Shown here in pieces: positions 1,989 through 19,397 of a stretch of DNA of 50,126 bases. Each line of letters starts with the position of its first letter. The first letter of the stretch is position 1. Location: assembly GCA_005888755.1 (NCBI GenBank), contig VBBQ01000031.1:1-50126 (forward strand). Direction: 5' to 3'. Origin of the DNA: Candidatus Bathyarchaeota archaeon. GTDB taxonomy: Archaea; Thermoproteota; Bathyarchaeia; 40CM-2-53-6. The notes beneath the pieces were generated by a model. That model had not been told where the DNA came from and searched no databases. It saw only the letters and a program-made list of their open reading frames with translations. A program made the translations under genes and the position numbers.

Positions 1989-2693
1989 TCAATAGATCTT
2001 CACCGATCTATCCGGTCCTATGAGAAGCCGGAACCATTTGGTCTCATGGGCTCCCCTGTAACTGTACACTCGAACGAAACGGCGAAGCTCCCCATCCATC
2101 TCGTCCAGCTTCATATCAATCACTCCATCGAAGCTGGAACGGACTTCGTTGTAGAACGAGTTGCTGTGTATTCCCAGTTCTATCGCATACGCGCCTATGT
2201 TGCCGTGCTTTTTCATTCGCGCTAGGTGCGATTTCATGAAACGTATCGAAAGTTCTTCGGAATTGTAAGAGAGTAGAGTTGATAGTGAGTCAAAGACAAC
2301 AAAGGATCGATCGCCGGCTGTCTCGGCGGCACTTGACAATACGACGCTGACTGATGCGACATCGGACGCGTTGTCTATCTGGAATCGTTCCTGGGAGCGT
2401 TCTCCAAGAAGCCACGAGTACATGTCAACGTAGATTATTTGGTCAGCCCTTCCCGGAGCGAGTCCAATAGCTCGGACCTGTTCCTTGATCAGTGAAACAG
2501 GATTGTTTGTTATGACGTAGAGACATCTCAATCCAGCTTCGACTGCCTCTTTGACCAAGGTCTGGCAGATGGTGGTCTTTCCCGCGCCAGGCGGTGCCAA
2601 TAGCGCAAAGTTGAGCCCGGTTGTGATAGGAGTGATCACTAGGCCCTTGAGGAGGTCGAAGGATAGCTCTTTGTTGGCGAGAGCATTCTTCAG
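1989..2693 (-). CDS. KaiC/RAD55-like RecA-fold ATPase 2, probable CTG start
   Basis: RecA-fold ATPase with Walker A APPGAGKTT and a Walker B-like strand FVVFDS, then a SDSxS-like segment and a C-terminal beta region typical of KaiC-like single-domain proteins. The first GTG (2639) would begin right before the P-loop and remove the N-terminal helix. The frame continues upstream without ATG, GTG or TTG to a CTG at 2693-2691. That CTG is preceded by GGAGG eight bases away and forms a CTGA overlap with the stop of the UbiA gene, so I choose it (234 residues). The overlap implies translational coupling with the prenyltransferase. The CTG start is inference; the family is clear. Confidence 0.82.
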   Translation of the reverse strand: MKNALANKELSFDLLKGLVITPITTGLNFALLAPPGAGKTTICQTLVKEAVEAGLRCLYVITNNPVSLIKEQVRAIGLAPGRADQIIYVDMYSWLLGERSQERFQIDNASDVASVSVVLSSAAETAGDRSFVVFDSLSTLLSYNSEELSIRFMKSHLARMKKHGNIGAYAIELGIHSNSFYNEVRSSFDGVIDMKLDEMDGELRRFVRVYSYRGAHETKWFRLLIGPDRSVKIY

Positions 2694-3697
2694 GGCTTCT
2701 TCCTCCTCTGTTTCTCCCAGTCTCTGTACTCGACCCTAGAGTGAACACTGATTTTCGCAACTATCAGAGCCCAGAAGTAGGCCACAAGCACCATCACCAG
2801 CGATTGTAATGTGGGAGACGTCAGGACTAGTGTAAAGAGCAGGAAGGATATCGCGTAGAAAAACCCAAGCGTGTGAGCCTTCTCAAGCCCGGCGCTGTCC
2901 TTGGCTCTCAACATTTCAGAGAGAATGAAGATTAGTAACGGAACTAGCGCGAGGTCAGCGATGTAAATCGGCCCTAGAAATCCTAGGGCCACGAGCCCCA
3001 CGAGAAAGATGTATGGCGTGGAGAGGAGTGTGGCACTGAAGAGAACCGCCTTCCTCACGTTTTTGAAGATAGTGGCAGAGGTTCGGATACCTGCCTTCAT
3101 GTCTCCAAAATAATCTGGCAAATTCTTGACTGTCCCATAGGTGAACATGAACCATGTTAGGAGCCAGAGCATCGGGTTGAGAAAATCGAGAGATCCTCTA
3201 ATGCTGAGGCCCGCGAGAAAGGGAAGACCCAGTGCACCGGAGAAAGAGGCAAGACTAGCGAATGGTTTGGCTTTGAATCTCAGGGGAGGCAGCGAATAGA
3301 AGATGGAGTTTAGGATGCCAAAGCCCAGAACCAGTGTGAAAAGGGGTCCTAGGTAAATGGCTAGTGCAGCGGCACCAGAGTAGAGTACTACTAGAGAGGC
3401 GGTTATCTGTCTTGAGCCGATCTGGCCAAGCCAAAATAACCGTTGGGGTTGATTTGTTGCGTCTTCCTTCCTGTCAGCATACGCGTTTACAATATTGGTT
3501 GCAGCGGTCACCAGAGAAGCGACCGCTATGCCGATCCCTATCTGAGATAGTTGTCCTCCGCCACCTACCACATAACCTAGGATAAAGCTGAACGAGGGGA
3601 AGACCCATGTTCTCGGACCAGAAAGTCGAAACAGTATCGAAAACGTATGCGGAATAATTGGAACGCTTCCCAGAACCGGGAGAATTGGGCCTTGCAT
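2690..3697 (-). CDS. UbiA-superfamily membrane prenyltransferase
   Basis: Polytopic membrane protein with both aspartate motifs of the UbiA superfamily: NAYADRKED (NxxxDxxxD), and a second DYFGD (DxxxD) preceded by KNLP. These motifs bind the prenyl diphosphate through Mg2+. Members attach prenyl chains to quinone precursors, tetrapyrroles or lipid headgroups; which acceptor is used here is not visible. About eight to nine hydrophobic segments follow. I start at ATG 3697 (MQGPILPV), because the 16 residues before it (frame open to 3745) are charged and do not look like part of the protein. It overlaps the downstream KaiC-like gene by four bases, so the two are likely co-translated. Confidence 0.82.
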   Translation of the reverse strand: MQGPILPVLGSVPIIPHTFSILFRLSGPRTWVFPSFSFILGYVVGGGGQLSQIGIGIAVASLVTAATNIVNAYADRKEDATNQPQRLFWLGQIGSRQITASLVVLYSGAAALAIYLGPLFTLVLGFGILNSIFYSLPPLRFKAKPFASLASFSGALGLPFLAGLSIRGSLDFLNPMLWLLTWFMFTYGTVKNLPDYFGDMKAGIRTSATIFKNVRKAVLFSATLLSTPYIFLVGLVALGFLGPIYIADLALVPLLIFILSEMLRAKDSAGLEKAHTLGFFYAISFLLFTLVLTSPTLQSLVMVLVAYFWALIVAKISVHSRVEYRDWEKQRRKKP

Positions 3698-3966
3698 CGT
3701 GTCGTAATGTTTGTTTCGTGTTTTTCTGTGGGGCACGCTCTCCACCGAGCTAATGCGAACTTAGACTGGAAGTTTGAAGCCTGATCGCACATGGTCTTCT
3801 CTATGGTGCTAAGGAGGGTGTAACCAAGAATTCAGCAGACCAGTAACGCGTGGGTCACAAATTCATCTTGGATTGCAAGAGTTTCGGAAAGCACCACAGA
3901 GTTCTTGTGGTTGCTCTCCCAGAGGAGGCTAATCCTATAGGTTGGACACGAAGCCCTGCAAAACAA

Positions 3967-14672: not shown

Positions 14673-15198
14673 ATGATCTCCCCTGAGTTAAGGCAAAGAT
14701 TTGAAACGCTGCGGCAAAACATTGTTACTTCAGGCACTTCAGACACGTTCGAGATAAACAAGGCCGAAGTTAAACTCATCAAAGACCAACATTCAGAGGC
14801 AAGAGTCCGAGGCTTCAACGTAATTCAAGACGGGCCAGAGAGGTATCGGAGGAACCGGCAAGGGCCCAACTCCAACCGACTATTTCATCGCGTCGATCGG
14901 CTTCTGCGAGAACGCGATATTCGTCCGGAAAGCTAGTCTTGCGGGATTGTCCGTCGATTCGCTGGAGACGACCGTGACAGGGTCCTGGGACAGAAGAGGA
15001 CTCTTCGAGATCGACAACGTCGCGCCATACTTCATTGGCATAACCGTTGAGACGAAGGTATCAACAAGGGATCCTGTTGAGCGTGTGGTTCAGGTGGCGA
15101 AGGAGACGCATCGAAGATGCCCGGTGCACGCTACGCTGGCACGCGCTACTGATCTTACTTTCAAACTGGTCGTGAACGGTCAGAGCGTCCAGATCTGA
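14673..15198 (+). pseudogene. OsmC/Ohr family peroxide-defence protein, broken by one frameshift
   Basis: The frame from ATG 14673 encodes the N-terminal half up to RGFNVIQDGPE and stops being OsmC-like near 14840. A second frame then supplies GIGGTGKGPTPTDYFIASIG through to the C-terminus at 15198. Joined, they give a full OsmC protein of about 174 residues with both catalytic cysteines (IGFCENA and HRRCPVH). OsmC proteins reduce organic hydroperoxides. A change of one base around CAGAGAGGTATC restores the frame. Because everything else is intact, it is either a very recent mutation or a sequence error. If the assembly is right, the product is lost. Confidence 0.8.
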
Positions 15199-18896: not shown

Positions 18897-19397
18897 TCAT
18901 GGCTTTCCCACTAGACGCTCTTCGGCGGTGTAGTTGATGAAGGGTCCGCTCATCAGTGTACTGTTGCCGATTATCGCAATGTTTCCCTCTTGTGTTCTGA
19001 TCAAGGTCGACCTCAGACCCACCCTGACAACTATGCCCTTTATCCCACTGTAGGAAATGACGTCGTTCAATCGAAGGGTCTTGTCCGAGAAGAGCAGGAC
19101 CCCTGCAATAATATTTGACAGTGTTGTCTGAAGAGCCAAGGAAATTGTCAGCCCTGCCAACCCTGTGACAGTCAGAGCTTGAAATTCGGAAGCGATCCCC
19201 GTAACTACCAGAACAGCGGCGACAGCGACAACAATCCATGCGATCCTAACTCCATCTCGGATGTTTCTGACGAGCTGTTTGGAGGCTCCTGCTCTTTTGG
19301 CGATCGCAGTGAGCCCTCGACGAAATAACTCGCCGACAATTGCCCAGAGGACGGTGACACTCCCGATTTGTATTAACAGCGTAAAGATATCAGACAG
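18897..19397 (-). CDS. Small MscS-type mechanosensitive channel, unusual start
   Basis: The C-terminal half is classic MscS: the pore helix region GLTISLALQTTLSNIIAGVL, then the beta domain (LRLNDVISYSGIKGIVVRVG, STLIRTQEGNIAIIGNSTLM). Two further hydrophobic segments precede it (IFTLLIQIGSVTVLWAIVG and IAWIVVAVAAVLVV). The first TTG (19160) would delete all of this. The frame continues upstream with no ATG, GTG or TTG to a CTG at 19397, which has AGGA seven bases before it, and closes at TGA 19403. So either it starts at CTG (166 residues) or a one-base error hides the ATG at 19404. It would release pressure on hypo-osmotic shock. Confidence 0.75.
   Translation of the reverse strand: MSDIFTLLIQIGSVTVLWAIVGELFRRGLTAIAKRAGASKQLVRNIRDGVRIAWIVVAVAAVLVVTGIASEFQALTVTGLAGLTISLALQTTLSNIIAGVLLFSDKTLRLNDVISYSGIKGIVVRVGLRSTLIRTQEGNIAIIGNSTLMSGPFINYTAEERLVGKP

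Follow-up and report, generated by a model that had tools for sequence, protein, structure and literature searches.

Introduction

Near-cognate initiation is well known in eukaryotes and CTG starts occur rarely in bacteria, the usual near-cognates being CTG, ACG and ATA. The family of Bathyarchaeota considered here appears to use the same three codons, but it differs in that they stand as the family-conserved, sole start of essential genes, and in that TCG and GCG, which seem to be used as well, lie two positions away from AUG. A review of archaeal translation places initiation at AUG, GUG and UUG (PMC7531240). The same machinery is presumed to operate in our case, likewise on mRNA led by a Shine-Dalgarno (SD) site, and the difference lies in the apparent use of CTG, ACG and probably TCG/GCG; neither 'CUG' nor 'non-AUG' occurs in the main text of that review. 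In a literature search confined to open-licence papers we found no report of CTG or ACG starts as a trait of an archaeal lineage.

Four-base overlaps of the ATGA, GTGA or TTGA type, with termination-reinitiation, have been described in archaea and bacteria (PMC6728339). The locus analysed here shares with these the four-base stop-start overlap, the SD motif within the end of the upstream gene and the co-directed gene pair; it differs in that the first base is C, and the strings CTG, GTGA and TTGA are absent from the main text of that paper. A third system concerns fidelity: in Saccharolobus, according to passages in PMC8211752 (citing Hasenohrl) and PMC6237735, aIF1 discriminates against non-canonical starts. 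The Bathyarchaeota family likewise retains a regular aIF1 with a zinc knuckle, but most of its genomes add one or two divergent SUI1 paralogues, the role of which is unknown.

The UbiA/KaiC junction

The window, by which we mean the whole stretch of 50,126 nucleotides that was analysed, carries on its minus strand a UbiA-family prenyltransferase gene (2690..3745) followed by a gene for a KaiC-like P-loop ATPase (1989..2693; 234 aa when read from CTG). The first protein matches PF01040 with 89.2 bits against a cut-off of 34.2, and the second matches the Pfam KaiC family (PF06745) with 54.8 bits against a gathering cut-off of 26.6; none of the named KaiC/ArlH equivalogs of NCBIfam reaches its cut-off, the best standing at 46.2 against 307.25 bits. 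The minus-strand sequence at the junction is gaGGAGGaagaagccCTGaag. Here the UbiA-type gene ends AAG AAG CCC TGA and the KaiC-like frame crosses the same bases as GAA GCC CTG AAG AAT, so that the stop TGA (2692-2690) and the CTG (2693-2691) share bases as CTGA, preceded by GGAGG (2706-2702) at a spacing of 8 nt (2701-2694). An in-frame stop, placed 42 nt upstream by script and identified by hand as TAG 2738-2736, closes off the KaiC frame on that side. The sole ATG, GTG or TTG ahead of the P-loop is GTG 2639-2637, the likely choice of a standard gene finder, from which the open reading frame would be 216 aa long. There is also a further in-frame CTG at 2720, which the original prediction did not mention. 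That prediction had placed the CTG across the UbiA stop, the GGAGG eight bases before it and GTG 2639 as the only canonical codon ahead of the P-loop, and all three details are borne out by the minus-strand sequence and the list of open reading frames. Its comparison of the overlap to ATGA couplings also fits what is found in orthologues, among which an NTGA overlap with the UbiA stop (4 nt; N = T, G or C) occurs in 14 of 15; the remaining one, in G020, has ATG 3 nt behind the stop.

These orthologues came from a search of 101 genomes, which recovered 15 loci that include the KaiC start region, that of the window's own genome (G000) among them; locus L015 was omitted, as it ends before the region. 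The relatives named from the 15 loci are mostly metagenome-assembled Candidatus Bathyarchaeota from soil, a habitat inferred from sample depths given in titles; a search of viral contigs returned no relative. A start-type codon occupies the homologous position in 15/15 orthologues: TTG in seven (G014, G005, G001, G002, G008, G012 and G003), GTG in four (G006, G010, G017 and G016), CTG in three (G000, G013 and G018) and ATG in one (G020). The closest relative of G000 has TTG in place of the CTG. G008 and G003 have an in-frame TAG immediately ahead of the start codon, which rules out initiation farther upstream in these two genomes. The first residues of the protein, xNALANKELSFDLLKGL, are conserved, mean column identity in an alignment of 12 orthologues is 86%, and distant homologues can be aligned from about residue 10.

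We consider it highly likely, on this comparative evidence, that the KaiC-like gene starts at CTG 2693 through coupling to UbiA, within a lineage-wide relaxation of start codon choice. Ribosomes that finish UbiA would be held by GGAGG and would restart on CTGA with initiator Met-tRNA, yielding a KaiC-like protein of 234 aa with N-terminal Met. Termination-reinitiation fits the 4-nt overlap, which is present; dependence on upstream translation is inferred. Beyond this gene, CTG, ACG, probably TCG/GCG and sometimes ATA would serve the family as starts beside ATG, GTG and TTG, even in essential genes, mostly where an SD site or a closely preceding stop positions the ribosome. The KaiC result gains value precisely because it forms part of such a family-wide habit, in which essential genes are included.

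Start codons across the family

Four conserved genes illustrate the habit. For the ribosomal protein uL11, of which every genome with an intact match has a single copy, the start was seen in 18 family genomes and is CTG in 15, GTG in two (G018 and G012) and TTG in one (G019). A start at the first canonical codon would cost the G000 protein its initial 19 residues. Three codons ahead of the CTG, four of the genomes that carry it have an in-frame TAG and four others a second, non-conserved CTG. At 12 loci outside the family the uL11 start is ATG (5), TTG (3), GTG (2) or CTG (1, in G030), with one lacking a clear start. The gene for PheT, a tRNA synthetase subunit, has ACG at its start in 14 of 16 family genomes, the others having ATG (G003) and CTG (G019), and translation from the ACG aligns residue 2 with position 2 of TIGR00471; among 14 genomes outside the family we found ATG in ten, TTG in one, CTG in two (G029 and G024) and ACG in one (G026). 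The trait is thus not exclusive to the family. The ribosomal protein gene eL31 has CTG in G000 against ATG in the ten closest genomes.

The fourth case is GatE. GatD and GatE, both above their NCBIfam cut-offs, share one frame and are separated by a stop only, which in 17 of 18 family genomes (the exception being G020) directly precedes the first codon of GatE; that codon is TCG in 14 genomes, GCG in two, TTG in one and CTG in one. Judged by this column, GatE appears to start at TCG in 14 and at GCG in two of the 18 genomes. Outside the family the column holds ATG or TTG in nine of 12 genomes. The G000 copy has GGAGG 8 nt before the TCG, within the end of GatD. In several genomes GatE contains no ATG, GTG or TTG for 80-100 codons (L053:2788-886; loci L228-L245). 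We rejected TAG as a sense codon at this site: both TAG and TAA occur between the two genes, TAA in 4/18 genomes.

Pairwise comparison adds swaps between canonical and non-canonical codons at single positions. ACG stands against ATG in a ScpB-like gene (G017 against three genomes), an eL20-like gene (G005 against two) and a hydroxyacyl-CoA-dehydrogenase-like gene (G005 and G017 against two), and in one further gene ACG, TTG and ATG stand opposite each other. CTG is matched by TTG in ScpA, AroA, TraB-like and MscS-like genes, and by ATG/GTG in one gene of G014. The MscS-like gene is a second CTG-start gene of the window (mechanosensitive-channel-like, minus strand, 18897..19397, CTG 19397-19395), with 62.3 bits to MS_channel_2nd and TTG in G005. 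ATA stands opposite ATG once, in G017, where GAGGT precedes it by 8 nt, and TTA stands opposite TTG in a thiolase-like gene. Other pairings, of GTA/GTC/GTT with GTG and of CTT/TTA with TTG, lie mostly within genes and are taken as ordinary synonymous sites. GlyA shows GGT against ATG, with an extra ATG in G017, and the starts of GlyA, a Hef-like gene, TatC and g231 are uncertain. The names ScpB, eL20, TraB, TatC, CdvB, CdvC, TrpE, OsmC, thiolase and hydroxyacyl-CoA dehydrogenase come from reading the sequences and not from family searches; CdvB has no Pfam match.

Nearly all of the non-canonical starts, including the GatE series TCG/GCG/CTG/TTG, fit the pattern N-Y-G, with one or two C replacing U. 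In chloroplasts, ACG starts undergo C-to-U editing, and editing of the mRNA here could make the codons canonical (CUG to UUG, ACG to AUG, UCG to UUG and GCG to GUG). The pattern is equally what T-to-C change, a common mutation, would leave without any editing, and the ATA/ATG and TTA/TTG pairs just described would not be mended by C-to-U conversion; we regard editing as improbable.

Upstream coding constraint

The 18 codons between CTG 2693 and GTG 2639 decide between two start sites, since a ribosome starting at the GTG would leave them as untranslated leader. This GTG is a normal start codon with AAGGG 4 nt ahead of it, and G018, which is also a CTG carrier and belongs to a different genus, has a GTG of its own one codon before the site. 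Against it, the codon is private to G000: the seven closest orthologues have GTC and the other seven have ATC, ATT or ATA, leaving GTG in 0/14, and even G014, whose protein is 99.6% identical to that of G000, lacks it. Furthermore, G013 starts with CTG and has no ATG, GTG or TTG within the 30 codons examined, and comparison of orthologues shows that the 18 codons are kept as protein, changes being mostly synonymous; their hexamer score is +13.5. We hold a start at GTG 2639 to be very unlikely. With the column of start-type codons, the private GTG, the blocked upstream region and the conserved N-terminal segment all pointing one way, CTG 2693 emerges as the best start, and as a prediction from comparative data it is well supported. 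The original prediction of a CTG start thus holds up on the 15/15 start-type codons and on coding constraint, in the absence of N-terminal peptides, and the GTG that it named as rival fails.

In order to establish how widespread such upstream constraint is, we called 340 genes by hexamer usage in the window and 15 further G000 stretches (348,511 bases together), using syntenic stretches of G014, G005, G017 and G016 as partners and flagging any gene in which synonymous constraint begins at least five codons before the first ATG, GTG or TTG. Against its relatives G000 had 16 flagged genes among 225 testable, and the corresponding figures were 16/185 with G005 and 11/128 with G017 as reference, such that 7-9% of testable genes are flagged in family genome samples. 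Tests with a single relative gave 13/173 (G000 with G005), 15/169 (G005 with G000), 8/102 (G005 with G017) and 9/103 (G017 with G005). Controls from three genera of three other families in the order gave 1/74 (G028), 1/51 (G029) and 0/49 (G022), pooled as 2/174, against which 13/173, 15/169 and 9/103 differ with Fisher p = 0.003, 0.0009 and 0.003 respectively; the hit in G029 is itself CTG against TTG. The first control pair was too small alone (0/28) and was hence enlarged, and the reverse control directions (G031 1/70, G024 0/48 and G033 0/47) were left unpooled. GC pressure was rejected as a cause, as the control G028 has a GC content of 0.567 against 0.519, yet only 1/74 of its genes is flagged.

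Among the 16 flagged genes of G000, TrpE-like g53, g86, g225 and CdvC g45 remain undecided, and OsmC-like g279, which looks frameshifted, was not counted. Set against G014 and G005, this frame (window 14824-15195, plus strand) apparently lacks an N-terminal part that a frameshift has removed. In the TrpE-like gene (L054:14565-15980, plus strand), compared with G005 and G017, coding constraint sets in at the upstream stop itself, with no obvious start codon and no near-cognate common to G000, G005 and G017. The KaiC-like gene is itself missing from the 340, probably since the overlap of its stop-to-stop frame with UbiA exceeds 30 nt; close overlaps are for this reason probably under-counted.

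Ribosome positioning

If ribosomes arrived from the upstream gene by frameshifting or by reading through its stop, the downstream frame would need no start codon at all, a possibility that the UbiA/KaiC overlap and the shared frame of GatD and GatE might suggest. Such continuity is hard to reconcile with the TAG directly before the KaiC start in G008 and G003, with the ATG 3 nt past the UbiA stop in G020 or with the ATG of eL31 in the ten closest relatives; between GatD and GatE the stop may be TAG or TAA, and conservation as N-Y-G is confined to the codon after it, the two further on being variable. This explanation is barely credible. Sequencing or assembly errors, or decaying genes, might be invoked since all of the genomes are drafts and the named relatives are metagenome-assembled, but the same CTG in uL11 of 15 genomes and the same ACG in PheT of 14, in universal genes with intact frames, leave this with almost nothing in its favour.

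Initiation at the non-canonical codons themselves is further supported by SD motifs. A strict SD 5-mer lies 4-10 nt before 1.7% of non-start codons in G000 (236/13,800), and before six of 14 listed non-canonical G000 starts at 8-9 nt (p = 7e-8), against 6/280 at neighbouring codons of the same 14 genes; the other eight starts have no strict SD. The 14 were chosen by comparison and not by SD. KaiC is not an independent draw, its SD having been known beforehand (5/13 without it), and the test was not fully blind, as SD notes were visible when uL11 and eL31 were picked. A genome-internal test near gene starts gave 18/324 for ATG and 8/304 for CTG against the same background; it had little power because few genes carry a strict SD, and for this reason we turned to comparison with relatives. 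A whole-genome search of the G000 assembly for the 16S anti-SD found no archaeal 16S rRNA gene.

The initiation machinery

What the comparison shows is the codons themselves and how far they are conserved, the synonymous constraint, the SD enrichment and the exchange with canonical starts. Cellular initiation at these codons, Met as the first residue and a cause within the initiation machinery are inferences, for which there are no proteomic or ribosome data. The simplest mechanism would be pairing of the initiator tRNA with a near-cognate codon while SD and coupling hold the ribosome. A bolder proposal, which we put forward tentatively and which may well prove wrong, is that to ribosomes of the family N-Y-G codons (ATG, GTG, TTG, CTG, ACG, TCG and GCG) are ordinary starts in essential genes, with ATA accepted on rare occasions and TCG opening GatE in most species, and that aIF1 is displaced or modulated by the additional SUI1 paralogues, which would make start-codon choice less stringent.

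Matches to SUI1 number three in 14 of 21 family genomes, two in four, one in two and none in one, and among 40 other genomes exactly one in 33 and none in seven. The family copies comprise one regular aIF1 with the rest divergent; in G000 one regular gene and two divergent paralogues are found at C37:71057-71275, C32:20997-21206 and C3:1163-1372 (L173, L174 and L175). The extra paralogues are a candidate cause of relaxed starts, as a lead without proof that rests on correlation only. Of the genomes outside the family with single CTG or ACG starts, G029, G026 and G030 have one SUI1 match each and G024 has none.

Should the inferred initiation be confirmed, the start codons currently accepted for archaea would form too narrow a set, and gene finders limited to ATG, GTG and TTG would be truncating several percent of the genes of these archaea at the N-terminus, among them essential ones. 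TCG would be a surprising conserved start codon for any cellular organism, and the family would offer a natural system for testing fidelity control of the aIF1 type.

A tRNA search of G000 recovered only 17 loci, many with introns, and the initiator tRNA was not among them. ARAGORN finds few of the many intron-carrying tRNA genes of this genome (L258-L273), and its two 'tRNA-Pyl' calls probably mislabel an intron-containing tRNA-Arg.
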